DNA of 64,000 bases. Origin: Isoetes taiwanensis (taxonomy: Eukaryota > Streptophyta > Lycopodiopsida > Isoetales > Isoetaceae). The stretch is from the NCBI GenBank assembly GCA_021234155.1, contig JAJEKV010000084.1, positions 248,001 through 312,000 of the forward strand, in the 5' to 3' direction. This document shows positions 1-53,798 of the stretch, piece by piece. The notes beneath the pieces are model-generated. The model searched no databases, had not been told where the DNA came from, and worked only from the letters and a program-made list of their open reading frames with translations. The position numbers were made by a program, and so were the translations under genes. Numbering within the stretch: position 1 is the stretch's first letter; each line of letters begins with the position of its first letter.

Positions 1-300
1 GCCTCATAGGTACCGACCGGGCGCCGTGGCCTTCTTGAAATCCGCCAAATTTCAGAAGTCTACGAGCTTCGGACGAAAGTTACCTTTTCAAAGTGCAGTA
101 CCGGGTACGAGATCGCACGGCAATTCAAGACCGATCTCCATTTCCGCACCTTTGCAATTTTACGCCCAAGAGGTCGGCCGAAGCCTACTTGGTGGCACTT
201 TTAAGGTGACGCCAATCTTTGCGCTATCCACGCAAAGAGGGTCACCATAATGCCTAAGGATCTAGCCCTCGCCCGTAGGATACGGGAGGAGCAACCTTAG
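1..300 (+). pseudogene. Histone H3-like core, decayed, 5' end off window
   Basis: The reading opens with PHRYRPG, which is residue 38 of canonical H3, and runs to a stop at 298-300. H3 landmarks follow in order: FQKST and RKLPFQ (alpha-N/alpha-1), EIA..FKTDL (positions 109-140), EAYLV (180-194, alpha-2), then [24 protein letters not shown] from 214 (alpha-3 and C-terminus). The last residues differ from canonical RGERA. Loop 1 has canonical H3 length rather than the longer CENH3 form. The landmarks fall in three frames, with shifts near 95-106, 150-175 and 200-214, so the copy is not translatable as one chain. The family forms the H3-H4 core of the nucleosome. The tail lies off the window. 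Identification as H3 is very secure; ownership by the retroelement is an inference. Confidence 0.88.
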
Positions 301-857: not shown

Positions 858-873
858 CACAAGGCCCCCAAAA
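858..873 (+). repeat. Left terminal inverted repeat
   Basis: This is the 16-bp end CACAAGGCCCCCAAAA, preceded by the TCA target copy at 855-857. It matches the reverse complement of the right end exactly. A short motif, ACTGGTAT, recurs inverted about 60-90 bp inside each end. Confidence 0.8.
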
Positions 874-1390
874 TTGAATTAGTATGATTTTTTTATATTG
901 ATTTCTTAATAAAAACTAATTCTTAAAATCAATACTGGTATGTGGGCCAAAAAGTTTACAAACCATGTCTAGTTATACAATACAGTTCATTAATGCAATT
1001 TCATAACGTGACAAACAAATATTGTTTCTTCACATGGTGTTGAAAGATAATTATTTATAGGTGGTTTTCATGACAACTTAAATATATGATGTTTGCCACT
1101 ACTTAACTTATCAAGTTTATTGAATTGATATTTTGTCACATTTATCATCTTTGGTTTATAGATGTTGTAATTTTGAGTGCATAATTAGTATGATGTTTTA
1201 TAGCGGTTAATCATCATTGTAATCTTAAGTGGATAGTTGTTATAATAATTTATAGCGATTAATCATCGATAAAACTATGCTTGGTTTAGATAAGCTGGTA
1301 TGCATATTTTGGTATGATACCAATACATTTAAACAATATTATAAATGTATCTGATTTTAGTACGATTATAGAACATTGTAAGTATACATG

Positions 1391-1490
1391 ACTTTGAATA
1401 TGGATATCTAATCGTGCTTCATATGTCAAGTTTGGTGATGACTTTGAATATGGATATCTAATCGTGCTTCATATGTCAAGTTTGGTGATG
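1391..1490 (+). repeat. Perfect 50-bp tandem duplication
   Basis: Two adjacent identical 50-bp units (1391-1440 and 1441-1490) lie in AT-rich DNA of the transposon's left arm. No mismatch is seen, so the duplication is recent. The rest of 874-2100 has no recognisable gene. Confidence 0.9.
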
Positions 1491-2104
1491 TGGTAAGAGA
1501 CGTATTCCGCCTCAATATATTAATACGATAAAGTTGGAGAACTTTGACATGCATTTTTACCACGTGATTCCAATGTGTGATGCGTGGTGACTAGTATATT
1601 TCAGCATAATGTGCATTTGTTTTTCAAATCTTGATTTTTCTTATTATGAATATTTTTATTTATGAAAGATCACAAAAGCAATAGAAGACAAAGATTGTTC
1701 AATTTTTTTTTTCCATTGAACATTCGTATCAGCATACAATAATATATCAAACAAGAATATATCAAACAAGATCTTTCCTATCTGACACTTGAAGGACAAG
1801 TCTCAAGAAAGTCCAATATATATTTTCGCAACTCGTACTAGACAACTTGGCCCTCAAATAGCAGAAGTATGTTGTTGAAAAGATTGGAGCATGCTGAAGG
1901 AAAGATATCATTGATGTGGATTACATGTACAAACTGTTGCGAGATTTTGATAGTTCGACAGCTTGTGGACCTATCTACACCAGTCGATAGTCGATATACT
2001 ATGCACGAATAAAGTCTTCATCAGCCCTACAACCATTTTCCCCCGCACATAAAAACAGAGATTTTAAGGTAGAAAAATGTTGTAAGCAAAATTTTCTCAC
2101 TTAC

Positions 2105-3800
2105 CAATTGCGACACGTTTTTTCTGGCCACCAATCCTCATTGCAACACAAAATCTGGAAGTATACACAACATCCGCAATATGTGTTCCACGTCCCACAT
2201 CATAATAAATCAAATCAACTTGCAGTAAAAGCAGCACGTGTCTTCAAAATGTAGGGTGTAACTACTTTGTTTTGGACAGAGGTCTGCTTGCTAATGTAAT
2301 AAAAAAAATAGAAGGGCTCAAGAAATCTGGAGGTACAAAGAACATCTGCAATTTGTCTTCCACAACCTATGTAATAACAATTGACATAACAATTGACGTG
2401 TGTAAAGAGCATGTACCTCCAAGATGTAGGCTGTCATTACTTTGCTCGACAGAGGAGGCTCCCAATTAATTAAAAAACTAAAAGAGCTCGAGAAATGACC
2501 CTAGTTGCTCATTTGCAATGAAAGAAACACACCTTTATAAAAATGTCAAGTTCTAGCTACTGGGGTTATTTCAAAGATTCATCTAACTTCGAAATCAAAT
2601 CTAGAAGAACCACAAATGTTGCGATGATGCAAAACTAACAGTATACATATTATTGAAAATTGAAGCTTACCTTGTCTACTCCCAATACCTTGACATCAGG
2701 CAATTAAAACTCAAGTGTTTCTTGCACTGTCATCTCACCAATGTGCAAATCGTGCTGGCTAACATAACCAGACAATTTACCTCTCTTGCAATTTGAACTG
2801 AAATAATAAGCAAATTTTGTATTGGCCCCACTAGCGATTAAAATTCATACTGGCTCCACTAGTAGAGTTACAACAGTTTCAGTCCATAATATTTTCAATA
2901 AGTAGTTAACAGAGAAAATGTGAAGTTAAGCATGACATGTCCCACATGTGACAAATTTAAGAAGGAATATGAACACAAAAGTGTGAAGTTACGAGCACAA
3001 GCTATAGAAGATGTTTTATGCTGTTTCTACTATAGCGTATAATGAAAACACACCAAGGCACTGGAAAGTTCCAAATGCTTGCAGCATGCAATGAATGTCT
3101 AGGAATAGTAAGCTGAATACCTTGATAGCAGCACAAATTGCATCACCGTTAACACCATTAATCACCTCCCTACACTGCATCACTGTTAACAAGAACAACT
3201 CCATCAATCAGCTCCCTGCACAGGCGGAATGTTTCTCACCAACTTGTTTCACAAACGTGCATTATTGAGGAGAAACGTAACATTGGATATCCAATATAAA
3301 GCTGTTTACCTTGTATAGGTCAACTGGTTTTTGTGAGATTTTTCTATTGCTGATTCAAACTCCTCTGCATCTGCCGGCATCTGCTTGGACCTTGGATTCA
3401 CAGAGGGATTCATTATCAAGGCCAGAGACACCAAATAGCTCATTTATTTCCTTTCCACCACTAGAAAATGTATCTAGTGTCATGGACATAGCATTTTCAG
3501 CCTGCTTAAGAGGGTTCCTACTACCACATCTGATGCAAGTCCAGCATCCACAATAACATAATGCAAATTGATAACAAATTGACCAGATAATTACGCAAAG
3601 ATATTGTTTGATGCCAATTCTATTTTAAACCCGCTTAGGGAGCCATACAACAAGCTGCATCATATACCTTATCGTTGGAAAACAACTTACCTGATACATC
3701 ATCGTGGCATCCGTTGAAGAACTCCAAATGATTTCCGCCGTAATGCTTTATCCTGGCAGAGGCATTTCTCCATACCGGATATTCGAACTGGATGTTTAGA
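2105..3800 (-). pseudogene. PDR-type ABCG transporter fragments
   Basis: Three exon-like pieces on the minus strand match full-size plant ABCG (PDR) transporters in order. About 3800-3691 reads VWRNASARIKHYGGNHLEFF, like a PDR N-terminus, and ends at a GTAAGT-type donor. About 2781-2707 reads GKLSGYVSQHDLHIGEMTVQ and then ETLEF, the hallmark downstream of the first Walker A. About 2150-2105 reads GGQKKRVAIG, the ABC signature without its usual serine, and ends at a GTAAGT donor. A stop follows ETLEF, and the exon before the signature is present twice in diverged form (around 2170-2220 and 2340-2400). PDR proteins are plasma-membrane exporters. Here the gene is broken, missing most exons, and sits wholly inside the CACTA-like element, so it looks like captured cargo. 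Confidence 0.62.
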
Positions 3801-5279
3801 TTGATCTTCTGTGGCGTTTCTTCTGATTCCGCTGCCCCTGCTTCTGCATATGTGACTCCAAGCGACGGCCTCCCAGCCTCATCTGCATCGGCTCATCGCC
3901 TCATCTGCATCGGCTCATCTGCATCGGCTCACCGCATACATCATCTGCATCTGCTCACCTGCATCTGCCTCCCAGCATCTGCATTGGCTCATCTGCATCG
4001 GCTCACCACCCACCATGCTCGGCCGGCTGCCGCCACAAATCTGTAAAATTACCCAAGGTCCAAAAAAAATTCGAACAAAACCCTAACTCCTATTTTCCGC
4101 TAAACCATTGACAAAATCATAGCAATAGATAATTTGCGAACCTTAGGACTATACTACTACATGGATGAGCATTTAAAATTATGAGTGATTTTTGAAATAG
4201 AATGCTCATTCTTGACTTAAGAAATTCATTACGCAAGCAAGACACAAGTATATGAATTCAACATTGGGAATGAAGGCATAAGGTTCAGGTTCTTGAAGTT
4301 CATGCCTAAATTTGGAGAGGGTTCATTTGCGGTTAATTTGTCATGATTAAGGTTTTTGGATTGAAATGTGTGGATTTTTTGAAATAGGTACTTTATGCGA
4401 ATGCTGATACTTGATAACATACGAAAGCCGTCTAAGCATACGCTTTGATTTATAACTTTGTCCACGCTTAAAGTTCTAAAAGCAGGACACAGTTCCTAGC
4501 ATTGGAAATGAAGGCATAAGGTAAAAGTTTGGGAGAGGGTGCACGTTGCTAAGATCGAAATATGGTAAAAGCATATCAATGATATGCTCATCCGTTCAGG
4601 AGTGCTGCGAATGTGTGGGCATGTTTCGTGAACCACGTGTGGTGCCATAGGCAACTACCTCATAGTGTAATAATATACCTCCAGCTCATAGTTAACCACC
4701 ACATGTGATTCAATCGTGTAGGCATGTTTCCTGAACCACGTGTGATGCCATAGGCAACTATGTGTTATGAGAGGCCACTTGTTATGACCACATAGTTGGG
4801 GAAGGAGTAGGATAGTTAACTACCTATTTAATCTATGAATACATAAGGTGACAACAACCACGGGTGCTGCAAACATGTGGACATGTCTCGTGAACTACGT
4901 GTGGTGGCAACCACCTGTTATGAGAGGTCACCAAAGCATTTAAATATTGAAATGTAAAAGAAGTGGTCATGTGTATAAATACACACGATGTTTAATGACT
5001 ACAAAGTTCGAGGAAGAATAGTACAGTTAGCAAAAGAAGGAATCACTCAAATAAGTTTATCCAGCGTTTTGTAACTACATAGTAAAGGGCAGAATATAAT
5101 AGTTAACTATCTAAGCATTACCTTAAGCTCAACGGTGACAACCATAGGTTCTGCAAACGTGTGGGCATGTTTTGTGAACCACATGTGGTGGCATAGGCAA
5201 TCACTTGTTATGAAAGGTCACCAATTCATTCTAAAATTTTGAAACATGGAAAGAAGTGGTCATTTAAATGGTCATTCAA
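3801..5279. repeat. Non-coding cargo with dispersed short repeats
   Basis: No gene was recognised. Around 3870-4010 a CATCTGCATCGGCTCA-type motif repeats irregularly. From about 4600 to 5230 a module containing CGTGAACCACGTGTGGTG and TTATGAGAGGTCACC recurs at least four times (near 4620, 4725, 4870 and 5160) with divergence. These look like decayed tandem or subterminal repeats of the transposon. Confidence 0.5.
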
Positions 5280-7030
5280 AACCGACTTGTTACGTGCAAC
5301 TAGCCGACCTTTCGCTCAATGCACTCTTCGCCTAGTGCGCTAATCTAAACGTGGCATGTACTTAGCAATAGAGGCATTTGATCCATCTTCTGCTCTTCAA
5401 ACATGTGTCCTAGGGTAACTCTGGCCTTCTAGATTTAATCACGATCCGAGAAAACCCTGCATGCAAGCTCTTAACCACTCCAATGGCAGGGAAGGTTGCC
5501 AAAACCTAAACCCTACATATGTAGTAGGGTTGAAGTATCGGGACACCAAAACTGCTCCATCTGCTAATCCCATCGTCCAAATAGTAGCTCGTGTCCCAGG
5601 AGATATCTTCGAAAAAAAAAATGAACATCCATCGCACAAATGTGACAAGCCCCCAAATTTTCCCCTCCCTGACGTAGGGACATGGCGTGTTCCTCTAGTT
5701 CGGCCACTCTACCGAGCTCGAAATATGGATTTGACTTCGCGCATGAGTCTAAAGCATTAAATTTACTATAGGGACCAACTATTATGACCAACAGAGCCAA
5801 ACCCAACTTGCTATGTGCAACTAGCCGACCTTTCGCTCAATGCACTCCTTGCCTAGTGCACTCCTCGTCTAAATGTAGCATGTGCTTGGCAATAGGGGTG
5901 TTTCATCGATCATCTGCTCTTCAAACATGTGTCGGAGGGTAATTCTGGCCTTCTAGATGCAATCGCAGAGTCGAAATGTCGTTCCCTGCCTTTCTGGCAT
6001 GGCTGGTGGTACGTTGTCCAGCTTGTTACGAGCCATCGCAATGGAGAAACTTTGGAAACGGTGCCTGGGGAGTGTTTTTTTGTTCTCTCTCTTGGGATCT
6101 CTTTTCAGACCCTCGAGGAAACCCTGCACGCAAGCTCTTAACCACTCCAGAGGCAGGGAAGATTGTCAAAACTTAAACCCTACAGATGTAGTAGGGTTTA
6201 AGTATCGGGGCATCAAAAAAGCTCCATCTGCTAATCCCATGTCCAAATGGTAGCTCATGTTCCATGAAACATCTCAAAAAAAAAAAAAAAGGAACATCAG
6301 ATGTGCCAACCCCAAAATTTTTCCCTTTCCAAAGTAGGGGCACGTCGGGGACATGGCGTGTCCCTCCAGTTCGGCCACTCTACCGAGCTTGGAATGTGGT
6401 TTTGACTTCGCCCATGAGTTTAAAGCATCAAACTTACTCTAGGGACCAACTATTATAACCAACAGAGCCAAACACGACTTGCTATGTGCAACTAGCCGAC
6501 CTTTCACTCAATGCACCTCGCCTAGTGCACTCCTCATCTAAACATAGCATGTACTTAGCAATACGGGCATTTCATCAATCATTTGCTGCCTAGTTCTGGA
6601 TGCAACCGCAGAGTCGCAATGTCATTCCATGCCTTTCTGGCGTGGCCGGGGCACTACGTCCAGCTTGTTATGAGCCATCACAGCGGAGCAACTTTTGGAA
6701 CTGGTGCCTGGGGAGTGTTTTTTTGTTCTCTCTCTTAGGGTCTCTCTTTAGACCCTCGAGGAAACCATGCATGCAAGCTCTTAACCACTCCAGATGTAGG
6801 GAAGGTTGTCAAAACCTAAACCCTATAGATGCAGTAGGATTTAAGTATTGGGGCACCAAAACTGCTCCATCCATCTAAATGGTAGCTCATGTCCCAAGAA
6901 ATATCTCAAAAAAAAAAAAAAAAAAAAAAAAAAAGGACATCCATTGCACGGATGTGCCAACCCCCAAATTTTCCCCTTTCTGACATAGGGGCCTGTCGGG
7001 GACATGGCGTGTTCCTCCAGTTCATGTTCC
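5280..7030. repeat. Three-unit array of 0.5-0.7-kb repeats
   Basis: Units start near 5280, 5805 and 6470 with CAACTAGCCGACCTTTC. They share in order GCTCTTAACCACTCC, CCTAAACCCTA, an A-run (5612, 6275, 6908) and GGGACATGGCGTGTTCC. Units 1 and 2 end with GTTCGGCCACTCTACCGAGCT; unit 3 breaks off before it. On the minus strand that end reads AGCTCGGTAGAGTGG, resembling a tRNA A box. No real tRNA or open protein frame is present. The array is a locally amplified repeat, possibly SINE-related. Confidence 0.6.
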
Positions 7031-7508
7031 TATAGTTTTAGAAAAAATGAGTTGCAATGGTTGAACGTGGTTTACAAAATGTTAAAGATAAGATAAGAGT
7101 TTAAAGATAAGATAAGATAAGTCTTTTAACGTCCACGGAAACGCAATCGGGTTATGGGACCAGAACAAAAAAAGAGGGCATGAGTCCTCACAAAGCTCAG
7201 AGGCTGCCCCCCACAACAAATCACAAATGAGAACAAACAGAAAAATAGAAACTAAACTAGAGCGAATCTCATGGATCAGAAGGCCACTGATCATGAATAA
7301 AAGGAAAAGCAAATTGTCGTGAAGCTCTAGCTGTCAATGATCAAATATTCATTTTTTCAAACTATTGGATTTTGAATTATTGAGCGTTATAATACTTGTG
7401 CCTATTTGCTTTGTGAAAAAAAATATCATAGCTTAGAATGATGGGGAAATCGATCGTGAAACTTTGCTCGAAGCTCAGGGTTTGCAAATTGATGATATCA
7501 TGAATGTC
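7031..7508. other. No recognisable feature
   Basis: AT-rich transposon interior. A short run of GATAA repeats lies near 7087-7120. Nothing else was identified. Confidence 0.5.
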
Positions 7509-7522
7509 AAAATGTATAGGCT

Positions 7523-8610
7523 TGGGATCACGTGCGTGTGCTCTTCCAGCTAGATTATGCCTCAGTTTATCACCACTCTTCTCCTTTCTTGTGGGTTCCT
7601 CTACCCCCTGCGTACTTGCCCTTGGCTGCCACTGTGCATGCTCGGACGCAGGCCCGTTGGAGGCGAGCTGCTGTGCTCACCTTGGAGGATTGGTATTGGG
7701 ATGGTCAGCTAGCTTCGTGGGAGTTCTTTCGAGCTCGCTTTCGCCTGAAGGACAGTGACCGGGCTATCTGGGAACAAGTGGCGGGGAGTATTCCGCTACA
7801 CATACCTATAGTCCCTCAGGGTGATGTGGTGGTGCAGGTTTGGAAGGTTCATCCAGATGTTGTATCTTCTTGTTTTGTGCGGTCTTGTTACCGGGTGTTG
7901 GCTATTCATGACACTCTGCCCCCTTCAGGCAAGTGGTCTCTGCAGCTTCCGGGTTCTCGATGGCGCTCGGTTTGGACGTGGACATGGAGCTCACTTCCCC
8001 ACCGGGTTTTCGGATGCTTCGTGGCGGTGGTGCACCCATTTGTATCGGGGTGAATGTCCTTGTGAGTCGGGTTTAGGCGGGTGTGAGCCCTCTTTGCCCT
8101 TGTTATGGCCTTCATCGTGAGGCTGTGGAGCATTATGCGGTTTTATGCCCTCACTTGCGTGTTGCCCGGGATTGGGTCGGGCTCTGTTTCGGGTGAGATT
8201 GAATAGCCAACAATTGCTTTGCTTCATGTATATCCCGGTGCTTGGCAGCCAGATGGCAGCAAGCCTTGCATCCTCTGTCGTGGCTTGGTTGGTGTGGTTG
8301 ATTTGGAAGCGGGCGGCGGTTGTGGATCTTCGGGGATTCAGCAGACTGCGACCTCTCCGATTCCTCGACTTCGGTACAAGCTATTTCAAAGCTTTTGGTG
8401 TTCCGGGATTAGTAGAGCGGAAGTTTTCCATTTGGCGGGACTTCTTGGGTGTGGTAGATGGTGATGGCCAGTTTGTACAGCAGTAGAGTTGCAGTTGTTG
8501 TGGAGTGTCGAGGTATCACTGTCTCTTTGGGGCAGTTCTCCTTCCTCCTCACTTGCTTTGTAACATTACCATTCTTTTAATATATTGCTGACACAGTTCT
8601 TCAAAAAAAA
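7523..8610 (+). mobile_element. 5'-truncated LINE 3' end with target duplications
   Basis: The insert is bounded by AAAATGTATAGGCT at 7509-7522 and again at 8611-8624, and ends in an A-tract at 8603-8610. These are hallmarks of target-primed integration. Broken frames across 7550-8470 resemble the C-terminal part of plant L1 ORF2 seen at 28262: first the region ending WEQVAG, then RFGRGHGAHFPTGFSDASW in the zf-RVT zone. Several frameshifts break the coding. It was truncated on arrival, inside the CACTA-like element, and is therefore younger than it. Confidence 0.8.
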
Positions 8611-8624
8611 AAAATGTATAGGCT

Positions 8625-9896
8625 CATAAAATTCTTGTGTTTTGTATTGGTTTAAAACATAACAAATTATATACAAGACTTGAAGGTTGGTGAATGCATG
8701 GGATGAATCTTTGACCTAATGATGTTTTGGATGAACGAATGTTTTGACCTAGTGATTTTATAAGAAAAATCAAATGTGGTCACAAAAACCATTGAGATTT
8801 ATGTTGGCTAAAATATAGGTCGGGTGAGCCAATTGGATTCGAGAGGATAAATAAGAACAAGATTGCATCCATCAGTTGAAAAGAAGCCGAATCCATTCTT
8901 GGAAAAATAAATTGGATTTACAGATGCAATTAAGATCATGCTTTGAAATCAAGCTTGTTTTTGTGTTTTCCATTGCTGCAATAAAGTCTTGCTTATTTAA
9001 TATAAGTGAAGCATGTTGTTCTAAGTTTTTGCCTACCTGAAGCTACTTATTTGAAGTATCCATGCATCTAAAATTTGAACATTGCTCAGGAATATCAAAG
9101 TCTTACGCTCGACATTATTTTATGTTTTACATTAGAACATTATAGTTGCTCGAGGAAGTTGCTTGATGTTGATGCTATAACTCTTCACCATTCGGATAAA
9201 ATATGTGCATGCTCTCAATACGTGTACTAACTAGTATATCATAGAGGATACATTGAAAAAGGTAAGTACAAACATACACTTGCCCCAATATAAAGCTATG
9301 CTACATATAATGTTAGAAAACAAAAAACAAAGCATAGACACCATGCAACCAGTAAAAGTCAATGTACATAATGCAAGTTTATAATTACAATTAAGGATCA
9401 CGCTCTAAAAGTAGGGCAAAATCAGATATAATAGTCAGAATTACTAGTTAACATAAATAACTATGCTCAAAGTCAGTAGTGACATTAAGGATTGAAACAA
9501 GTATATTAAATAAACAACTACTCAAACCAACGTAATATACCGCTAATAACCATAGTAAATAAGCAAGTGACAAAAACCATAGCACACTTGCAAAATCAAA
9601 TATGGTTCTCCAAAAACTAGGAAGGATTAAAACTAGGTTAAGAATTATATATGATAATGATAAACTAATATGTAAAATCATCTTAAATTGTAATATTAAC
9701 AATGTACTCTTAAGAACCACCTCCTAAACTAGTAATAACTTTAAGAAACTAGCGTTAGATACAAAATTAGTATAAGAACTATGATCATACTAGTAGTGAT
9801 TATGAAAGCCATATAGTTTTCCTTGATATTGTGAATTGCATGTAGTAAAAACCACTCTTATACTGGTTTCTATCATAATTATGAATACGAGTTAAT
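8625..9896. other. CACTA-like element right arm, no gene seen
   Basis: AT-rich DNA with no recognised protein or RNA gene on either strand. Confidence 0.5.
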
Positions 9897-9912
9897 TTTT
9901 GGGGGCCTTGTG
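9897..9912 (-). repeat. Right terminal inverted repeat
   Basis: This is the reverse complement of the left end, followed by the second TCA target copy at 9913-9915. Confidence 0.8.
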
Positions 9913-10951
9913 TCATGGACCAATACGTTGAGGATGAGACTTTGCCTGTAGAGAAGGGCAAACTGCCAGAATCCTCCGAGGAGGGGGATGATGAGCATAT
10001 AGGGATGGGCGACTTTGCCCGTTGGAAAGAGCTAGCAGAGGAGTTACCACCGCGCCGTGAACAAGCTATAGGCTTGTCAGGGTTAGACGGCCTTCCAGTT
10101 ATCTATCACCAAGGGCAAGAGTACCTTCTCTTGGATGATATTATCTGGACGTATCATATGGTGGCCGGATTTCGACGCAAGCGCAAAGACCATGTACTTT
10201 ACGAGCTTGCGGAGTATTGTATGGATGATTTTATCGACTTCACCTCTACCGAGCTTCCTTCGGAGGTGCACCACCTTCCGGTTCCGTCGGGGAGACCATA
10301 GAAACCCGCGAGACTCTACTACGCCGAGACTTTGTGATGCGAGGCACCGCTTCCGCGGCTGCACGAATGCCTTCCGCGGCTATGGGACCTCACGTCCCAA
10401 ACATTAATATGGTTGAGGTTCCCTCCGACTCAGATGATGAGGGTGAAGATTTATATCATAACCCTGCACACAAGAAGGAGGAGCAACAGGAGCTCAAGGA
10501 GGAAGAAGTCCCCATGGACTTGGATAAGGAGGTGGCAGCATCTGAGACTCCGCAAGGGAAGGTGCTGGGTAACCACCTTACCCGTTTCTTTTTGTCGGCC
10601 TTCCGATATGGGCAAGTCCTCTTCATAGCCCGGGATCTAGGGCCAGAGGCTGAAGCTTCATGGTGGGCCCTCCGTGCACTCTCTACACTGGCCGGCCACA
10701 AGAAGCTTCCCTATCGTACGTTTACTTATGTACTCGTACGACGGGATCTTGCCCTGACGGCCTTGGGTCAGGATATTGCGCCTTGGATGGGAATGAAGCT
10801 CCTCACGGCAGCCCCATTGGCCGTTGCCTATCCACCCGAGGTTGCATCTGTTGCGGCTGCCACAGTAGACCCTGGGGTTACTCTGCTGCGACACCGACCG
10901 CCTCCACCACCTCCTAGGGCTAAGGATAAAGAGGCAGGGCCTAGTTCCTAG
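9913..10951 (+). pseudogene. Unknown ORF2 of the chromovirus, 3' part
   Basis: This continues the gene split at 857. The first frame (MDQYVEDETLP...) stops at 10299-10301, but coding continues in a second frame from about 10275 (GETIETRETLLRRDFVMRG) to the stop at 10949-10951, so there is one frameshift near 10270-10290. Visible parts are an acidic segment, the second HQG-YL motif (10091-10138), a strongly acidic stretch VPSDSDDEGEDLYHNP then KEEEQQELKEEEVPMDLDKE (about 10417-10535), a hydrophobic/aromatic block FRYGQVLFIARDLG, and a proline run before the C-terminus. No family is recognised. Acidic tracts occur in histone chaperones, which would suit an H3-encoding element, but that is speculation. 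Confidence 0.6.
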
Positions 10952-12007: not shown

Positions 12008-13190
12008 ATGCTCCCTATAGACGGTGTACGTAACGCCGCTTGGCAAACACCCTCCAACGCCAGTAGGCTCACCCCTGAACAAGAATTGATGTTAATGAAG
12101 AGGCAACTCGGCGAATTACAGGCCTATGTGTTGCATACCAATCCACTGCAACAAACTCAGGAGGACGGACCGGAATTACCTCCGCGACCATTGAGTCCAC
12201 CTGCACAACAGCCATCTTCTCCCAGAGCTAGCCCTGTACCTGTACAAAAGAGGACTCATGCTAAGCGTCATCGAAGTTCCTCTAAGGATAGTGCCGCTTC
12301 CTCACATTCAACCACTTCGGTGTCTTCGGGGTCATCGCTATCAGACAGTGACCATTCGAGGCGTAAGGATAAGGAATACCGAAAAACCGTTGACACAGCC
12401 ATAACTAGTATATGGAAGAACCGAAAGCTGGCTCAGTTTGATGGGAAATCCAGAGGAGGCTTGAATGCAGAATCTTGGTTGGATGAGATGAAGGAATTTG
12501 GGAAGTCCTATGGAATGACAGAGAAAGACACAGGGAAGGTCGCCACCACCAACCTTACCGGAGCTGCCCGTATTTGGTGGAAGGGTTACGCCAGAGCTAA
12601 GCACACAGGGCGGGAGCGGATGCAAGTTCAAGAAGTTTGCTAAGGCTTTTAAATCGCATTACGTGCCTCGTGCGCACAAATGCCAACAGATTCAGACCTT
12701 CTACAGGTTGGAACAGAAGGGCATGTCCGTGCAGGCCTACACTGACGAATTCATGCGTTTGAGGTTATATGTACCAGGAATGAATGAGAAAAGGGCAGTA
12801 GAGGGCTATATTGAAGGGTTGGCCCCATCCATTAAACGCATGGTCAAGGCCATAGACCCAAAGTCGATGCTTGAGGTGGAAGCTAAGGCATTAAGCCTTG
12901 AGGAAGACATGCCAAGGAACCAAAGATCCGCGACCTGCTCCTTACTCGCGACCCACGGCCGTCCACACCTTACAAACCCGTTAAGCCAAGTCCGGGGCCC
13001 TCTCAGCACAATTCTTCACGGCGCCCGGGGAGAAGAAAGTCGCCTTTAGCACGCCAGATAAGCAGAACAATGCCGGTAAGGAAGTTCGGGGCCTCTTACA
13101 GTCCATTCCTAAAGAGGCCAGAGAACAGCTCCGCCGGGATAAGGCATGCTACCGGTGTATGAGGCCTGGACACTTCATGCAGAATTGCCC
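12008..13190 (+). pseudogene. gag: Chromovirus gag with CCHC zinc knuckle
   Basis: Gag packages the element RNA into virus-like particles. The N-terminal half (12008-12643) has a coiled-coil-like start (LTPEQELMLMKRQLGEL), a proline/serine-rich linker with basic KRTHAKRHRSSSK, and the start of the retrotransposon gag domain (LAQFDGKSRGGLNAESWLDE, AARIWWKGYAR). A frameshift near 12640 moves coding to the next frame (IQTFYRLEQKGMSVQAYTDE, MNEKRAVEGYIEGL) up to about 12930. A further shift precedes the knuckle CYRCMRPGHFMQNC at 13147-13188, which matches CX2CX4HX4C. At least two frameshifts make it non-functional. An upstream AATAAA near 11917 and the lack of a convincing start context leave the true N-terminus uncertain. 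Confidence 0.85.
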
Positions 13191-13205
13191 GTACGCCAGC
13201 TGGCC

Positions 13206-13770
13206 ATGGCCGACCTTGATTGGGAAGATCTGGAGTCCAATCTCCCTGCGGAGGACGAGGCTCCCGAGTACATTCACGGTGCGTCTCATATTCTTGCCGC
13301 TATAGAAACAGGCAACGCTGAAAATCAGCCTTCTGTTATTTCTACAATAGGCCAAGTAGACAGTAAGCCCTTCATAATTTTGATGGACACGGGTAGTACG
13401 CATAATTTTGCTTCTCCTAGAATGGCCCAGGTACTGCAGCTGGAAACATTGAGATCCCGACCTAAGCCAGTCACATTAGCCAGTGGTAAGATCAGACACA
13501 CTCATGGCCGCCGTATTAACCTTAAGATCACGGTTGCCGAGTGCACCGGTTGTCTTGGGTCTTTGAGTTAATGGACATTGGTAAATATGATCTTATTGTT
13601 GGAATGGAGTTTTTAGCATCTGCCAAGGCCAACATAGGCCGTGAGAAACGGAGGTCACCTTCAACGCCCGCTAATGGAGCACGTGTGACTATAAAAGGTG
13701 ATTCATTCCACTCCCGCTATGCGATCAATGTCAATAAAGCAGTTAGGAAAAGCTATACGCAGGAATGAAC
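13206..13770 (+). pseudogene. Chromovirus aspartic protease
   Basis: A retropepsin domain follows the knuckle. The catalytic motif is LMDTGSTHNF, with the Asp codon at 13386-13388, and it follows a typical strand VISTIGQVDSKPFIIL. The flap-like stretch (VTLASGKIRHTHGR) is present. The second half, with the conserved DLIVGMEFLA, lies in another frame at 13575-13620, so a frameshift near 13560 splits the domain. The enzyme would cleave Gag-Pol; this copy cannot be intact. Confidence 0.85.
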
Positions 13771-13772
13771 TC

Positions 13773-15213
13773 CTTTGCTTCATTAAACTTGCTTCCATTG
13801 AGTCTGACTCCAAGCAGAAGCAAGTCATCGACGCCTTACCACCAGACATTGCTACCCTTCTTCGGGAATTTAGCGATCTTTTTCCAGATGAGATCCAGAA
13901 GCTTCCTCCTTTCAGAGGGGTAGAATGTGAGATAGTTCTACAACCAGGTACTAAGCCTACCAGCAAGGCCCCGTACCGAATGAGTCCTCCAGAGTTGGCA
14001 GAGCTTAAGAAACAACTTCAAGAGTTATTAAACCTAGGTTTTATTCGGCCTAGTGTTTCACCATTTGGCGCTCCTATTCTTTTTGTCAAGAAGAAAGATG
14101 GCTCCTTAAGGATGTGTATTGATTATAGGCAACTCAATAAGCATACCATCAAGAATCGCTATGCTTTGCCTAGGGCAGATGATCTTATGGGGACCCGATT
14201 CACGGGGAGCAAAATATTTCTCAAAGATTGATTTGCGCTCCGGATACCATCAGATAAGGATAAAGGAGGAGGACATTCATAAGTCTGCTTTTCGCACTAG
14301 ATATGGGCATTATGAGTTTACCGTCATGCCTTTTGGATTGACCAATGCCCCTGCAACGTTTATGAGGTTGATGAATGACATCTTCCGCCAATACTTGGAT
14401 GACTTTGTTGTTATTTTCTTTGATGACATTCTCATCTATAGTAAAACCTTGCAGCAACATGAACAACATCTTCGATTAGCTTTGCAAAAGCTAAGACGCC
14501 ATCAGCTCTTCGCCAAGTTTTCTAAATGCAAGTTCGCCACTCCGAGGGTAGACTATTTGGGGCATATTATTTCAGCAGAGGGAATTGCTACAGACCCAGC
14601 CAAAATAGAAGCAGTAAAGGATTGGCCCATTCCAGCTAATGTTTCAGAGGTCCGGAGTTTCTTGGGGCTCGCAGGATATTATCGGAAATTTGTTAAGGAT
14701 TTTGCAATAATTGCCGCACCTCTTACTAATCTCACAAGGCATGAGAAAGTGAAGGATTGGATGGAACATTGGAAAGCAAAAGTCCAAGTCGGCTTTCAGA
14801 AGCTCAAGGATGCTTTAACATCTACACGGTCCTCACCTTGCACGATCACGAAAAGGATAAATCGGTAGCCACCGATGCTAGTAAGATAGCTACCGGTGGA
14901 GTCTTAATGCAGGAAGGGAGAGTTGTTGCCTACGATTCAAAGAAGATGAATGATGCAGAGCAGCGATATCCTACCCATGATCAGGAGTTGCTGGCAGTTG
15001 TTCGTGCTCTCCGTATTTGGAGACACTACCTTCTTGGTAGAAGGTTTCAGCTCGATACGGATCATCAGAGTCTCCGCTATCTATCCACCCAGCCAAATCT
15101 AAATCTCCGTCAGCGAAGATGGATGGAATTCCTCGAGGAATATGACTTCGAGATTGTATACAAGCCAGGGAAGCACAATGTGGTTGCGGATGCTTTGTCA
15201 CGTCATCCCTTCA
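13773..15213 (+). pseudogene. pol: Chromovirus reverse transcriptase and RNase H
   Basis: RT motifs appear in order: [34 protein letters not shown], then after a frameshift near 14190 [37 protein letters not shown] and catalytic [12 protein letters not shown] at about 14408-14443. The connection [20 protein letters not shown] and [12 protein letters not shown] follow. RNase H starts after a second frameshift near 14850: [14 protein letters not shown] (first Asp), EQRYPTHDQELLAV (Glu), TDHQSLRYL (Asp) and VADALSRHP (last Asp). All polymerase and RNase H carboxylates are retained; only the frameshifts break it. Confidence 0.92.
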
Positions 15214-15321
15214 TAACCCGGACCCATTGTAACGCCATTTCCACACTCACCAGCGAGTTTGGGAAGCAGATAGAAACAGACCACGGCCCGCGGATCCCGA
15301 TTACGTATTATTTGGGAAAGT

Positions 15322-16760
15322 TTGAGTAAGGAAGCCCGTACCAATAAAGAACGTGAAGCATTCCGTTCATATAAGAAAGAGGGCAATTTGTTATATCACA
15401 AAGATAAGTTGTGTGTTCCAGCGACTTCAGGGGTGCGAAAGCTGATTCTCCATGACACACACAACAGCCCTATAGCGGGACATGCGGGTTTTATGAAAAC
15501 TTACTTTAAGATCCGCTCCAGCTATTTTTGGCCTTCGATGAAGAAGGATATTGCTAGGTACATCAAGCGATTAATGGGGTTTGTCGGCAAACCAAGGCTG
15601 AGCAATTAAGAGTTCGGGGGAGTTGCAACCTTTGGATGTGCCCAACGCCAAGTGGGAAGTCATAACCATGGATTTCATTGTGGGCCTTCCACGCCTTTGT
15701 CGCGTGGATATGATGCATTAATGGTGGGTGGTCGACAAATTATCAAAGATGGCTCACTTCACCGCCATGTCGCACCACGGACACCGCATTCGACACCGCC
15801 TTGCTCTTTGCAAAAGAAATTTTCAGGTTACACGGGGATGCCGAGAGTAATTGTATCGAGATAGGGATCCTAAGTTTGTCGATTGCATTACGGAAGGATT
15901 TCTTCACCACCATACTGACCAAGCTTGCCATGAGTACAGCTTACCATCCTCGGACGGATGGTCAAAGCGAGCGTGTCAATCATTATTATCGAAGATATGC
16001 TTTCTGAAGCTATGTATGGAGTAAAATGATCACAATGGGCGGATTATATTTATCCGGTAGAGTTAAGCCTATAATAAAGATCTGGCGGGGAGTCTTTAAA
16101 GATGTCTCCCTTCATGATAAATTATGGCTATCAATGTCTTACTCGGACCGTGGCATAACCACGTTTCTAAAGTAGAGGTCTCTCAACAACTCCTTTTTAG
16201 AAATCACGGGCCTTGGTGGAGGAAGTTCGGGGGTTACTTATTGGCCGCTTGATCGTCGAGAAGAGTCTAGCGGATAAGCACCAAACCCCACGAATCTTCC
16301 GGTGGGCGAATCGGTTTGGCTTAAGATCAAAGTAAAACAAGCCAAGCTTAAAATTGGTAATCTTAAGAAGTTGGCACCCGGATGGGCTTGGGCGTTCAGG
16401 ATTACTGAGCGCTGCGGGGGCTGAGGCATGTCGCTTGGACTTGCCACCCGGCTTGAAGATCCACAAGGTCTTTCCGTGAGTCTTCTGAAGCAACACCCCT
16501 GATCCGGAGGAGGTTTTGGATACCCCAACTCTCCTAGAAATGATCAAGAGCAAAATGAAATAGTGCCCGAAGCTCTTCTTGACCGAGCTTACAAACAGAC
16601 CAGAAGGACTCAAATGTTGCAATACTTGGTCAAGTGGAAGCACTTACCAGTTGAAGATGCTACCTGGGTGATGAAGCTAGACCTTGAGAAGCACTATCCG
16701 GACTTCATGCGGGAAACTCAGGGCCGCACCATCAACGATGCTATCAACCCCGCTCCCGGC
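15322..16760 (+). pseudogene. Chromovirus integrase with C-terminal chromodomain
   Basis: The HHCC zinc region reads LILHDTHNSPIAGHAG... YFWPSMKKDIARYIKR (about 15440-15590). The core is scattered over frames: VITMDFIVGLP (first Asp, about 15660), RDPKF near 15865 and AYHPRTDGQSERVN (catalytic Glu, 15943-15980). A decayed C-terminal part around 16200-16500 keeps traces of the VWLK/GPF region. The last frame, 16563-16730, ends in a chromodomain: MLQYLVKWKHLPVEDATW then LDLEKHYPDF. The YLVKWK aromatic core is intact. Chromodomains of this class bind methylated H3 tails and steer integration to heterochromatin. Many frameshifts make the protein dead. Confidence 0.88.
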
Positions 16761-17400
16761 GGTAAGCTTGAAGGCTTGATTTGTCGAGAATCATGTTCTA
16801 GGGGGGTAGATGCATCGTATATTATAATAATAACCAATGATGAGATCACCTTTGTGTTCTCTAGGACATGGTGTATTGTTGATGGTGACATGACCGCGAA
16901 TTGCTTAAAAAGCATTTAGTAAATAGACTGCGTTCATTCCGGCTATACGGGGAACTGAACCATTCCTTATGCCACAATGAATTGCAAGCCGTAGACATGA
17001 TAGGTTCCCTTCTAGATGCTTTTTCTTTTATTTATAGGGGGTGGTCCCTTCAACCACAATTTAATCATATTATTAACCTGCGGGTATGTTGATGTGTGCA
17101 GGCCAGTGAACAGATCGTCACCTGCCACCCAACTTTTCCCGTATTGGTTTTGTCTACATCTGTGATTTTTGTTATCCTAATGTTTTAAATCGGACTTTGG
17201 TCCTAAACTCTCTTGATGATAAGCTGTATAAGGCACCTTGGTGCTTGTACTTTGATATTTTCAACTTCGATGTATTACTATCCGAAATACTATAATTTCA
17301 AAGTATTCATGTTATATTTTTTTAACTTCATTTTATAATTCAGTTGTTCACGTATGTCTTCAATTAGCTAACCTCAATGCTGAGGACAGCATTATTTTTT
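16761..17400. other. Untranslated region between pol and 3' LTR
   Basis: No open frame or RNA gene was recognised. It lies between the chromodomain and the polypurine tract. Confidence 0.5.
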
Positions 17401-17414: not shown

Positions 17415-19029
17415 TGTGACGTTCCATGTAGTTATACGGTCTCCGTCACGTACTTATACGGGACACGTACAAATACAAGCACGTCACCACGCTACCATGG
17501 GGGTAGGGGAACTTAATTGCAACCTAGGGGGTTACCTTAAAAAGGATTAAATTAGCTATGCTAATTTAACACATTAATAATAATAACCTATAACCTAGGA
17601 AATTAGGCTAATTACCATTTGGGAAGGCGCCACCTGCCCCAATCGATTGGGCAGCATGGGGGTTGCCAAGTTTGGATGCCAACTTGACCCCTATCCCTGG
17701 GATTGACTCCTGAAGATCGACCAAGGAAGGCCAGGAGCCGGCGCCATATACACCCAGAGAATCACCATAACGATGCGTCCCTCGTGAAGCAACAGCTGAA
17801 TTCTCAACTCCCAGGAGATGGAGGCGCCCCATGGAAATGAGTCCAGCCAGAATTCAGGTAGGTGGCTATGTGAATTCTAGATAACGCTTGGTTGTGTCCG
17901 TTTCTCTGTTCTCTTTGTGATTCAATCATAGAAACTAACCCTTGATTGTACAAGCCTCTTTATATTCGATTCTGGTTTCTACTCTGAAAGGATGGATTGT
18001 TAGTTCTTTTTTTAAATCTGACTCTGAAACGGGGGGATTACGGGGGGTAGAGACCTCTGAGCCGTGTATTGAAGTATGCTCCTAGATAGCGCCATACAGA
18101 GAGTCCCATTAAATGCGGCACTGTGCACAAGAGCCCACCGGGTCCTAGATGCTATGGTCTGGCTTAGCACCAGACAAGGAACACAGTGGTGACATGAGGG
18201 GTGGGGTCTTGCACGAGCATACAAGGCTCCTGAGACTCCTACAGTGGGCTAGGCCTGATAGCCGGTCACGTAGAGGGCCGGGTATGGGTCTGACACTCCC
18301 TGGGTGTAGAGGTGTGATCCGTATGGAGCACCTTGCACTTTGAGTAGATTTAGGGTGAGTAAGTCGGGTACGGATGCGGGGGTCGCTGATGCGGCACGTA
18401 TTCTCTAGCTCACCCATGGAACCACCGTGTGATTACGGAAGGGGCGCTTCCCCGGACCTGCCTCATCGGACCAAAGGCCATGAACCCAGAGTAGGCTCAA
18501 AAGGGTGATCCCTTGGACCTGCGTCTCCGGAAGGCTATAGCGAAGCCATAGCATGAATTGACCCATCTGCAAAGTGTGCACAGGAGGGGCGGATGGAGTG
18601 GACAACCCTAGCCGATGTTCTATGCCAGCCAACGCCATGCCAAGACTCGGTCCGCTGATCTCTTGAGGCCCAGCCGTCAGTCGATCCTCACTGGAGTCTG
18701 AGCCGGGGTAGAACCTGGGTTTTGGGCGTTTTCTTAGGATTAGATGCATATTCTATGCCGTTGGTATTTTGGATGGGTGCGCCACCCTTCGTGGTGGTTA
18801 TTTATGTATATTCGTGCTGTGTGCTAACCCTTGTATTCATGCTTCCGCGACGTAGGAGTCCCATTGAAGGCGTGGGCCGAATGACCCCTTCGTGTCCTTC
18901 TTCGGGCCTCATTTCATAGATGGCCCGAAACAGACGGAGGGCCCTGCTCATGGTGAGATGATCGCCATGGGAGGGGAAAGTCCCCGTATGTATACGTCCG
19001 AGGGTCGTATATATTCTGGGAGCGTCACA
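17415..19029 (+). repeat. Chromovirus 3' LTR, 1615 bp
   Basis: Starts TGTGACG and ends CGTCACA, a 7-bp inverted terminus. It is homologous along its length to the LTR at 61547-63165; both contain GCACAGGAGGGGCGGATGGA (about 18578 and 62759) and the same terminal words. The first 90 bases contain several TGACG/CGTCA elements, the core recognised by bZIP factors. The solo end here follows the purine tract, identifying it as the 3' copy. Confidence 0.9.
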
Positions 19030-19527
19030 GGAACAAGAAGAAGAAAACAGAACAGAAGAGAACAATGAGAGGAAAATGATAAGCTTCCTTGATGTCAATG
19101 ATGAACATACATGAGCTCTCGCAATCGAGAGAAGACTGAAGAGAGACAAGACTCAAAACTCATCTAAAAATCATGTGCTAGCTCTACTCATATATATAGT
19201 ACAATGGCCTTTGGCCCAATATAGACACACTGACTGATCTCGGTGCCGACTCCTGGAAGGAGGCCTGATTTGCAGGAATGTTGGCGGTGCCTCTTGAAGT
19301 GCCTAGAATCTCGTTGGCCGCCGGCCGGGCGGTGTGATGTGCCATCACCTGAGCCATCACTTGTCCGAGCGGGCCCTCTTGTTGACGGGCCTTGAGGCTT
19401 TGATTGCGTGGTCTCTACCTTGGTCTTCTGCTGGGCTTTGGACGGCTGACCCGTGCCTGTCTGTGGATCCTTAAGCTTGACCTGGTCCGTCGTATGCATG
19501 AATAGTCCTGTACCAGGAGGCACAGGA
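19030..19527. other. Unresolved repeat, possibly a minus-strand LTR piece
   Basis: Between the chromovirus LTR and the LINE. On the minus strand a TATATATGAGTAGAGC stretch (around 19200) is followed by a pyrimidine-rich leader ending near 19030, which resembles a promoter plus R-U5 of an LTR. No primer site or coding domain is visible to prove it. The minus-strand frame over 19188-19523 is low complexity in composition and unrecognised. Confidence 0.3.
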
Positions 19528-21858
19528 CTAACAAGTCCAGGTCCAGATGGTCTGCAGCCAGAATTCTACAGGGAATTCTGGGAAATCATGAAGAAGGATT
19601 TAACTATTTTCTTCAAAGGTGCCTGGAAGGCTTACAAGTTAAATCCAGCCATTAATGCAGGTCATATAGCCTTGATTCCCAAAGTTGACTGTCCTGAAGA
19701 GATTGAACAGTGGAGACCTATCTCTCTCACAAACACAACTTACAAGGTGTTAGCTAAAATTTTAGCTAACAGATTAAAAGCTGGGTTGCAGTCTGTTATC
19801 AATCCATGCCAATCTGCTTTTCTTCATGATAGGCACATCTTGGATAATTTCATTGGAGCCACTGAAGGTCTTCACTGGAACAAACAATCTAATCAAGGTT
19901 GTATGCTTTTGAAGCTTGACTTCAAAAGAGCTTATGATACAATCAGTTGGGACTTCCTTAAGAGAGCTATGCTGCACCTTGGTTTCTCGGAAAAAGTTTA
20001 TGAAAAAATCTGGGGAATGAATATAACAGCTTCATCAGCCTTGTTAATTAATGGTTCTCCAACAAAGCTATTTGACTGTAGAAGGGGAGTCAGACAAGGT
20101 TGTCCCCTGGCCCCCTATCTTTTTCTTATTGTTGCAGAAATGGTGACCAGACTAGCCAACAGGTTGCATGAACAGCAGAAGATCAAATGTTTGGAACTAC
20201 CACATGAGGGAGGCCCTTTCATTCTTATGCAATATGCTGATGATACTTTTGCCTTTTTAAAGGCAGAAGATGATAGCCTCAAAAACTTCATTTCTGCCCT
20301 GGAGCTATTTGGTGATGCATCTGGAGTTAAGTTAAATAAAGCAAAATCTGCCATTATTTTGGAATCTGATTTGTCAGAAATACAAGGCATCAAAATCATT
20401 GGTAACACTCAGGCTACCAAGATCTTAGGAATCCCAATCTCTCTGAATATGTCAATCCATGGCTTATGGGATTCCATTGTTACAAGAATCAAGAAAAAGT
20501 TGCTTCTGTATCCCTCCACACTCTCACTAGCAGGAAGGGTTGAAATTGCAAACTCTGTTATAGCCAGCGCTCATGTTTTCTTCTCTTCAGCAATGATTGC
20601 TGACAAGGCCTCCTACAAATGTATAGAAGTGGCTATAAGAAAATTTATTTGGCAGGGAGCTCATAAGGTTGCCTGGACAGATTTAATCAAATCAAAGAAA
20701 GATGGAGGACTAGGTTGCAAAGACTTGTTCACCCAAGCCCAAGCTCTAGTAGCTAAGATGATCTGGAGGGCAATCTACTCCACAAACCCCTCACCTGCCT
20801 TAAAGTTGGTCCAATACTGGGTTAGGGAATCCCATCCAGTAGGCAGCTCAACAATTAAACATCAGTTGCCAGACTCTGCCTTTTTTCAATTCTCCCCTAA
20901 AGCAGGTACTTCAATGATTATGAGGAGGATGATAGCTGCTTGGAATGAAGCTGCACTATGTTTCAGAGCTCCAGAAATTGATTCCAGGTGCCAGCAGGTC
21001 AATCTTTTTTGGCATCCTTGTTTTGTTGAGGAGGAAAATGGTTGCATGGCTTTCAAACATCCTCAAAAATACATGCAATGGTATAGGGCTGGAATTAGGT
21101 ATGCTGCAGACCTAAGAATAGAAAACAGATGGCTGTCTTGGGATGAGGTCAAGGATAAAATAAAAGGCTCCAAGGTAGACAGAGATATCTTTCAAGCTTT
21201 TATGAATGTGCTGCAGCAATATCAGGAGTTGGCTATGAACTCCAACTATTGGACTTTGAGTGGCAGTATTGGATATAAGGTCAGTACCATCTACAAAGGA
21301 CTTTTAAATCCTAAATCCTCAAGAGCTACCCTGATGTGGAACTGTAGTGAGGGTCAATTAGCAAAGAATTGTGCTAAAGGTTGGAAATCCTACATGGCAA
21401 GTAAAATTCAGACATTTAGATGGCTGATCCTACATCAAAGTCTTCATACAAATGCTACAAGGAGTAAATATGATCAGAATACTTCAATGTTGTGCCCTTT
21501 AGGGTGTGGAGAGAAGGAAACATCCAATCATGTCTTCCAATGCCCCTGGCTCCAGGAGTTCTGGACTTGGACTTCTCAGCTGAATAAAGGTTCACTTGGT
21601 GATCTGAGGCATTTCTTAGAAACTGAGTCGAGAATAGTGATAACCACAAGGGCCTTATGCTGTTGGTGCATATGGAAACATAGAAACAGAGTGGCAATAG
21701 AAAAGAAACAACCAAATCTCACCTGGTTCAAAGTCAATTTGTTACAGGCATTAACAGACTCGGCAAATGCACACTGGCTAAAGGGAAAAGCTATGACAAA
21801 GAATGGGATAGAATTGGGAAGTTCTGTGGAAATTTCAATTTCTTCTTTTTATTACTAA
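19528..21858 (+). CDS. LINE ORF2 reverse transcriptase, N-terminally truncated, about 776 aa
   Basis: One uninterrupted frame. RT motifs: SPGPDGLQPEFYREFW (19531 on), HIALIPKVDCPEEIEQWRPI, MLLKLDFKRAYDTISWDF (motif A), RRGVRQGCPLAPYLF (motif B), catalytic YADDT at about 20233-20247, and the thumb TKILGIPISLNMS. The zf-RVT region near the C-terminus reads KIQTFRWLILHQSLHTNATR then CPLGCGEKETSNHVFQCPWL (about 21405-21560). Plant L1 ORF2 is normally about 1250-1350 aa with an N-terminal endonuclease, so roughly the last 60 percent is present. The frame reads open upstream to 19453, but that part is flanking sequence. Absence of stops over 2.3 kb suggests a recent insertion. Confidence 0.92.
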   Translation, partial: LTSPGPDGLQPEFYREFWEIMKKDLTIFFKGAWKAYKLNPAINAGHIALIPKVDCPEEIEQWRPISLTNTTYKVLAKILANRLKAGLQSVINPCQSAFLHDRHILDNFIGATEGLHWNKQSNQGCMLLKLDFKRAYDTISWDFLKRAMLHLGFSEKVYEKIWGMNITASSALLINGSPTKLFDCRRGVRQGCPLAPYLFLIVAEMVTRLANRLHEQQKIKCLELPHEGGPFILMQYADDTFAFLKAEDDSLKNFISALELFGDASGVKLNKAKSAIILESDLSEIQGIKIIGNTQATKILGIPISLNMSIHGLWDSIVTRIKKKLLLYPSTLSLAGRVEIANSVIASAHVFFSSAMIADKASYKCIEVAIRKFIWQGAHKVAWTDLIKSKKDGGLGCKDLFTQAQALVAKMIWRAIYSTNPSPALKLVQYWVRESHPVGSSTIKHQLPDSAFFQFSPKAGTSMIMRRMIAAWNEAALCFRAPEIDSRCQQVNLFWHPCFVEEENGCMAFKHPQKYMQWYRAGIRYAADLRIENRWLSWDEVKDKIKGSKVDRDIFQAFMNVLQQYQELAMNSNYWTLSGSIGYKVSTIYKGLLNPKSSRATLMWNCSEGQLAKNCAKGWKSYMASKIQTFRWLILHQSLHTNATRSKYDQNTSMLCPLGCGEKETSNHVFQCPWLQEFWTWTSQLNKGSLGDLRHFLETESRIVITTRALCCWCIWKHRNRVAIEKKQPNLTWFKVNLLQALTDSANAHWLKGKAMTKNGIELGSSVEISISSFYY

Positions 21859-44947: not shown

Positions 44948-44951
44948 TATT

Positions 44952-44970
44952 TGGAGGTCCTACCGAGATC
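44952..44970 (+). promoter_or_regulatory. Primer binding site, tRNA-Gln type
   Basis: TGGAGGTCCTACCGAGATC lies four bases after the LTR. Its complement reads ...CTCGGTAGGACCTCCA, matching the 3' end of eukaryotic tRNA-Gln (…CTCGGTGGAACCT plus CCA) with compensating acceptor-stem differences. Confidence 0.65.
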
Positions 44971-45003
44971 CCTTCCCGAATTTCTCTTAGTGTTATTTAA
45001 ACT

Positions 45004-46130: not shown

Positions 46131-46439
46131 ATGGGGAAGAATGTAGTAGTTGAGAAGTCAGTGAAGTATATTGAGGCGATTCAAGAACCTGATACATCAG
46201 TGCTTGCAGTGACAAGACAACAAACATTAAAGGAGACTCAAATGCAAGTGCCACACAAGGATCACGAGAATAACATTTTACCTCCCAAACCAAGTATGGG
46301 ATCAACAAGCCATGTGCTGTCGAAGGAAGTCCAGCAAGTGGAGCATTTATTGAAGAATACAAAGGTAAGCATTGATTTGCTAACATTGTTTAAAGAAGCA
46401 CCCACCTATAAGCAGGGATTTTTAAGGTTGATGAACGAT

Positions 46440-46860
46440 AGTCAAAGTGAAGGGGCTGCACTAATGGTTTGCCAAGCCACGTTCGAAGATCCTGGTGCAA
46501 TAACATGTCAAGCTCGAATAGGTAATTTTGAATTGTCAAATGCTATTGCAGATGGAGGTTCGTGTATAAATGTTATGCCATATCATGTCATGTTGAAGCT
46601 TGGTCTTAGCGTAACTACCAAGTCCCCTTTCATAATTAGAGGCTTCACTCAAAATTGTGTTACACCTCTTGGGATAATAGAGAATGTGCAGGTCATTGTG
46701 GAGGGAGTTATTGCCAATACTGCATTTATGGTAATCTCATTCACTGAGCAAAAGGAAGATGAAGCTTATGATCTTATTTTAGGAAGACCATGGCTTTGGG
46801 CAGTAGATGCGTGCCCCGTTTGGCGTAAAGGGGCATGCACTATATCAGATGGACGTAACC
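46440..46860 (+). CDS. Tat-like retropepsin-like protease domain
   Basis: Lies within an open frame (46062-47105). The strand ARIGNFELSNAIADGGSCIN carries the catalytic-type motif DGGS (Asp codon at 46551) instead of the usual DTGS/DSGS. It is followed by VMPYHVMLKLGLSV, FIIRGFTQNCVTPLG and the second-half motif EAYDLILGRPWLW. The spacing matches retropepsin-like domains of plant gypsy elements. Gly for Thr/Ser next to the catalytic Asp is unusual and may lower activity. Confidence 0.8.
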
Positions 46861-53769: not shown

Positions 53770-53798
53770 GGGGACCAGCCAGTCGTTTTTGGGCCTAA

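Follow-up and report, generated by a model that had tools for sequence, protein, structure and literature searches.

A histone H3-fold protein encoded as the 5'-proximal gene of two sister families of chromodomain Ty3/Gypsy retrotransposons in Isoetes taiwanensis

The window, i.e. the whole stretch of 64,000 nucleotides of Isoetes taiwanensis DNA that was analysed, opens on its plus strand with a remnant of a histone H3 core (positions in the window are given without prefix, those on its contig with the prefix C1094). By translation, tblastn and comparison of copies, positions 1-300 were identified as the end of ORF1 of a retrotransposon of family B, covering H3 residues 39 onward and closed by a stop codon at 298-300 (tblastn E 2e-15). 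The core is split over three frames, with PHRYRPGAVA..RKLPFQ in frame 2, FKTDL and a longer piece in frame 1, and EAYLVAL in frame 3, and this copy is therefore a pseudogene. The earlier note had read an H3 core from residue 38 to the C-terminus at this position; the run to the C-terminus stands, but the core begins at residue 39 and is broken. At the DNA level the remnant matched best to ORF1 of family B (72% over 606 nt, 262 bits), whereas the matches with host H3 genes were weaker (49 bits for 67% over 275 nt, and 58 bits for 83% over no more than 54 nt).

Downstream of the remnant and on the same strand, ORF2 starts at 516-857 (MAAADLAAWYHDGEKWDPQVPFDLL..., ATG set by eye) and its remainder, located by copy comparison, lies at 9913-10950. 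The two parts are separated by an insert of about 9 kb (858-9912), which is missing from a second, nested family-B copy described below, the matching blocks stopping at 857 and resuming at 9913; within the insert, partly repeated blocks that are 80% alike were noted at 5447-7023. The genes for gag and aspartyl protease follow at 12008-13571 (PF19259/PF03732 in 12519-13046; protease in 13143-13568) and that for reverse transcriptase at 13695-15609 (PF00078 in 14110-14865; RNase H and the start of integrase by eye), all with broken frames, and a chromodomain closing pol at 16503-16919 (PF00385, E 1e-8). The Pfam set of this copy, PF19259/PF03732, PF13975/PF08284, PF00078 and PF00385, is that of a Ty3/Gypsy chromovirus. 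The 3' LTR at 17415-19030 (plus strand) pairs with a 5' LTR at C1094:244674-246290, left of the window, with 93.6% identity over 1646 columns, and the 5-bp target duplication GGAAC was found at both ends of the element (C1094:244674-267030). Since the H3 remnant sits between paired LTRs flanked by GGAAC, it lies inside the element, and it has the same orientation as gag, protease, reverse transcriptase and chromodomain; its position in the element and upstream of a co-oriented chromoviral gag-pol, as proposed in the earlier note, was thus borne out. The window copy is collinear with the nested family-B copy through the H3 core and the start of ORF2 (to 857), and then through the end of ORF2, gag, pol and LTR.

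An element of a second family, family A, begins near the right end of the window. Its target duplication GAGGA (61542-61546) lies within a Copia-type pol gene, its 5' LTR occupies 61547-63165 on the plus strand, and its 3' LTR is at C1094:333592-335220, beyond the window. The LTR is followed on the plus strand by the primer-binding site TGGTATCAGAGC (63167-63178), which we take to be of the initiator-Met type, and by the start of ORF1 at 63714-64000 (MARTKQTMRKVGVKP..., ATG-ARTKQT), which encodes the H3 tail and an acidic linker; the H3 core at C1094:312463-312843, past the window edge, is in a different frame from its tail. What had been taken for a second copy of the same LTR family is an H3-bearing element of a sister family, the LTRs of A and B being 76.6% identical over 261 bp with common ends, TGTGACGTTCCA...GCGTCACA; the H3-tail reading frame is there as described, but starts about 540 nt past the primer site rather than immediately after it. 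Nested in this family-A element is the family-B element at C1094:314714 to 327219, flanked by the duplication ACCTC, in which the H3 core is open and the start of ORF1 is in another frame. ORF1 is thus broken in all three copies closest at hand, i.e. the window B, nested B and window A copies.

Several other elements were noted in the window. The Copia-type element (58958-61622, by eye) is split by the family-A insertion at 61547, and its pol resumes past C1094:335225. A second Ty3/Gypsy-like element at 42934-56048 is young, its end repeats (42934-44069 and 53799-54934) being 99.2% identical, and no H3 match was found in it by tblastn. An open frame of 802 codons at 19450-21858 has a LINE-type reverse transcriptase sequence (by eye), and minisatellite-like repeats at 56949-57879 are open over long frames on either strand (VIHRV.. 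and CITTLCI..).

Two sister families, A and B, of chromodomain Ty3/Gypsy retrotransposons encode an H3-fold protein as their 5'-proximal gene. In family A, ORF1 encodes MARTKQTARK joined to an H3 core, which ends in RIRKEYP, by a variable, low-complexity charged linker about 180-270 residues long; the ORF is unbroken in L015, with 288 aa as it stands. In family B, ORF1 of about 420 aa opens with a domain of some 190 residues, followed by a charged and then a basic, ARKS-bearing stretch and lastly by an H3 core ending in RIRGEHP or RIRGERP, and is unbroken in L043 (420 aa). A third H3, type C, distinct from A and B, was found at one locus (L071) and probably belongs to a further element family. 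The proteins of B and A matched H3 chains in PDB (E 4e-53 and 9e-29, respectively) and PF00125 (E 5e-41 and 9e-29). Over residues 49-133 the alignment with a host H3 (L069) is free of gaps, with identities of 57/85 (A), 75/85 (B) and 71/85 (C). CENH3 has a longer loop 1 than H3; an identity of the element proteins as CENH3 was ruled out, because A, B and C align gap-free with host H3 over these 85 residues and have no loop-1 insertion.

A selection of H3 positions known for contacts with DNA, for the H3:H3 bundle and for chaperone binding was then compared. All 14 DNA-contact positions are kept in B, 13 in C (K64R), and 12 in A (changes at L65 and F84), and the eight positions of the H3:H3 bundle are kept in all three types. 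The chaperone stretch 86-91 is altered in all three (SLTTRV in A, TFAILA in B), and A in addition carries K56Q and K79V and is without the entry segment Y41-R42-T45 (by eye). As to the tail, most family-A copies retain residues 1-9 and diverge thereafter, with K4 and K9 present in 13/13 LTR-picked copies that have an H3 start; family B begins with MANTKS, without R2 and K9. A comparison of the H3 core with protein sequences gave 5762 matches, and the 120 listed among them were histone H3, H3-like, other histone or nameless proteins, none being named as a mobile element. The N-terminal 290 residues of family B gave no match among 2163 candidates in a search of 5.8 billion proteins, nor did its N-terminal domain match Pfam; a 102-residue piece of the family-A tail gave no match in a search that admits only proteins of similar length. 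One scan of IMG/VR contigs with ORF1 of L043 gave one distant H3 match (38%).

The genome (G000; 1,658,258,908 bases on 1110 contigs) was searched for further copies. The 150 best of 9246 candidates scored for the family-B core were all 93-100% identical to the query, and the 150 best of 9661 for the family-A core were 86-100% identical; these counts of at least 150 per family are lower bounds biased to the best matches, the remaining candidates being unscored and possibly overlapping between queries. A total of 133 of the 150 family-B matches were free of stops. Of the premature stops in the family-B core, 13/17 were TAG (by eye), an excess as expected if deamination of methylated C decays CAG sites. 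The canonical H3 query detected 15 intronless, near-canonical genes (96-98% identity over all 136 residues) and a further 135 listed matches at 71-86%, which include the type C locus and were taken as element type without individual check. A host histone gene as a mere neighbour was ruled out, the 15 near-canonical genes (two of which, L068 and L069, were fetched) being separate from the elements.

The regular presence of H3 was examined at loci picked by LTR DNA alone, using the best 30 of 40 scored family-A LTR matches. Fourteen of these are 5' LTRs, and an H3 start was found downstream of 13 of them and at none of the other 16 loci, in agreement with the expectation of the earlier note that family members carry H3 after the 5' LTR and that chance adjacency is unlikely. 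The start, of the ATG-ARTKQ type, lies at offsets 568-1199, counted from 15 nt ahead of the end of the LTR match, and the primer-binding motif is intact in 13/14 5' LTRs and altered in one (L013). The sole exception is L005, a 5' LTR without an H3 start in 1500 nt downstream; another family-A LTR (L030) was noted 20 kb from it on the same contig and strand. Among 30 family-B loci, the N-terminus of ORF1 was found at 30, ORF2 downstream at 29, and the leader upstream at 28; having been picked by H3, these loci show its context and do not address its absence. The full sequence from LTR to LTR was read in few copies.

Selection on ORF1 was measured across copies, as the earlier note had envisaged, by pooled pN/pS for 12 LTR-picked family-A copies with codons in the frame of L015; two of the 14 5'-LTR loci, L004 and L005, were excluded as having no aligned tail, and the core was covered in full in three copies (two from longer fetched stretches), in part in six, and not at all in three. 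The value was 0.056 for the histone fold (codon bootstrap 0.016-0.116) and 0.262 for the linker (0.211-0.312), and, within the tail, 0.063 for ARTKQTARK and 0.268 for residues 11-36; shifted frames gave 1.2-19. Eight of the nine ARTKQTARK codons vary silently, and the peptide is altered in only two of the 12 copies (L004, outside the 12, reads MARSKQTMRK). The fold and ARTKQTARK of family A are under strong purifying selection. In family B, pN/pS was 0.037 for the core, a value biased because the loci were picked by core protein score, 0.111 for the N-terminal domain, which unlike the core was outside the search query, and 0.265 for the charged stretch. These low values indicate constraint on the family-A H3 at either end and, in addition, on the new domain of family B. 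The ARKS residues of family B are well represented (A 28/30, R 29/29, K 30/30, S 27/30), and ARKS was considered as a mimic of the H3 tail; this was rejected, the stretch having a pN/pS of 0.27 and being no more constrained than its surroundings.

The pol genes of the two families are 71% identical over 2.8 kb, and ORF2, a candidate partner gene of H3 located between H3 and gag (L032:7338-8726 and L032:2609-3574) and without a Pfam match, is homologous between A and B in a single comparison (21%, E 2e-8), so that the H3-ORF2 layout is common to both. The chromodomain ends pol in family B (PF00385) and in one family-A copy (by eye). The K2P distances between paired LTRs were 0.014, 0.026 and 0.035 in family A, and 0.037 (nested copy) and 0.068 over 972 bp (window copy) in family B, indicating recent to moderate insertions. 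In ORF1, A copies with LTRs that match the query at about 88-95% showed a silent divergence of about 0.42-0.50 from one another, and that between A and B was near saturation, indicating that the H3 gene has been carried through a long history of the elements. Comparison of LTRs and coding parts among the LTR-picked loci (L001-L030) suggests that these have probably been recombined or exchanged between element lineages. The common layout and the homology of ORF2 favour a single capture of H3 in a putative common ancestor of A and B. A tree of H3 over 85 columns separated the element H3s from seven host and outgroup rows (support 89/89, not starred) and placed family A on a long branch (100/100), but cannot settle a single capture; the only change against host H3 common to A and B is Y54F.

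Hosts silence transposons through the tails of H3. An element with its own selected H3, in which the K4/K9 peptide and the fold are kept and the middle is drifting, would be a direct counter-move to this silencing. The best explanation of the element H3, to which we give about an even chance, is that, together with H4 of the host, it enters nucleosomes and changes chromatin in the element's favour. The ORF1 protein would be made from the full-length element RNA, pair with host H4, and be assembled into nucleosomes on element DNA, whether freshly made cDNA or copies already integrated, and possibly on host chromatin as well; the pairing with H4 and the entry into nucleosomes are predicted from the residues of the fold contacts, which are mostly kept. 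Changes in the tail, in the entry/exit region and at the chaperone site might then interfere with the marks or the compaction by which the element is silenced, and the K4/K9 tail that family A retains may show readers and writers a displaced H3 tail. Since ARTKQTARK is kept, enzymes acting on H3 tails, or readers of these, are likely to matter for family A. Counting against this explanation are the loss of the Y41-R42-T45 segment in family A, the start of family B without R2 and K9 and its ARKS stretch that selection does not set apart, the full coverage of the core in only three of the 12 LTR-picked copies, and the broken ORF1 of the copies closest at hand.

Alternatively, the element H3 could mark element chromatin as a self-made landing pad, onto which the chromodomain of the element's own integrase steers new copies. 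The terminal chromodomain of pol in both families, the insertion of a B element within an A element with its ACCTC duplication, and the selection on the K4/K9 peptide of family A are all in agreement with this reading; however, a single nesting event is involved, nesting is common in plants according to the available text of PMC6911290, and family B lacks ARTKQTARK, and we regard it as possible but improbable. About the same low probability is given to a soluble decoy, in which H3 tail and core titrate H3 chaperones, methyltransferases or readers and silencing of new copies is delayed without entry into nucleosomes. Such a decoy would account for selection on the peptide that K4/K9 enzymes read and for the changed chaperone stretch 86-91 in A, but the kept DNA contacts and H3:H3 bundle would be needless for a pure peptide decoy. 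It can be suggested only tentatively, as a somewhat doubtful proposal, that the element runs its own chromatin, depositing an H3 variant on its own copies, evading or rewriting host silencing marks there and having this self-made chromatin read by its integrase chromodomain, in the manner of a private histone code.

Condensation of element RNA or cDNA by the basic histone fold in a virus-like particle is unlikely: a basic domain is indeed encoded 5' of gag and B has a charged stretch, but Gag already contains a CCHC zinc-knuckle sequence (by eye) and the conservation is specific to H3, not merely to basic character. Carriage of a host H3 captured by chance and without function would fit the decay of the window copy, and mobile elements are known to capture genes (PMC6431247, in the part available); it is nevertheless very improbable in view of the difference in pN/pS between fold and linker within one ORF (0.056 vs 0.262) and of H3 in two diverged families and at 13/14 sampled 5' ends. 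That a host H3 gene lies next to an element by chance, or through an assembly artefact, has a negligible probability, since many contigs carry the scored matches, at least 150 for each family, and the 15 near-canonical H3 genes are elsewhere. Natural selection has kept the H3 core of these elements, and a parasite of the genome thus appears to produce a chromatin protein of its host in a version of its own. Whether mobile elements are able to set their own chromatin state thereby becomes open to test.

In the open-licence literature searched, no retroelement encoding a core histone was found among the papers listed, and the earlier note knew of no described plant retrotransposon with H3; the available text of a review of viral histones (PMC9145170) contains no word beginning with "retro", and the main text, as available, of the two Isoetes genome papers (including PMC8566536) no word beginning with "histone". 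On the basis of that literature, H3 as the gene of a retroelement is rated as categorically new, its nearest functional kin being single viral H3s. Plant chromoviruses with CHD_I or CHD_II chromodomains, including elements of Selaginella, share with the present elements the LTR, gag, protease, reverse transcriptase, integrase and C-terminal chromodomain, but no histone gene is mentioned in the available part of that report, whereas here H3 and ORF2 precede gag (PMC3350952). Giant or gene-capturing retroelements such as Burro are likewise of Gypsy type with captured or accessory ORFs; a histone is absent from the text of that review as available (PMC6431247). Histone mimics with ARSK or ARKS, such as influenza NS1, also show an H3-tail motif on a pathogen protein, but, as described in the available text, this is a short motif on another protein, while here it is joined to the H3 fold (PMC10208167). 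Single H3 genes have been described, in the accessible part of PMC9145170, for the DNA viruses xenomavirus, Dishui Lake phycodnavirus DSLPV1 and sylvanvirus and for three MAGs. These resemble the element proteins in being a lone H3, with a fold 73-87% identical to host-type H3 and a partly extended or divergent tail (PMC9145170), but the present genes belong to LTR retrotransposons with reverse transcriptase, chromodomain and many genomic copies in at least two families, and in family A the extra segment lies between tail and fold and not only before the fold. The best functional precedent for the element H3 is the bracovirus histone H4 (CpBV-H4), a parasite-encoded core histone that, according to the available text, joins host nucleosomes and changes host expression via its tail (PMC5423620); it differs in being an H4 and not an H3, and in being encoded by a wasp-borne polydnavirus.
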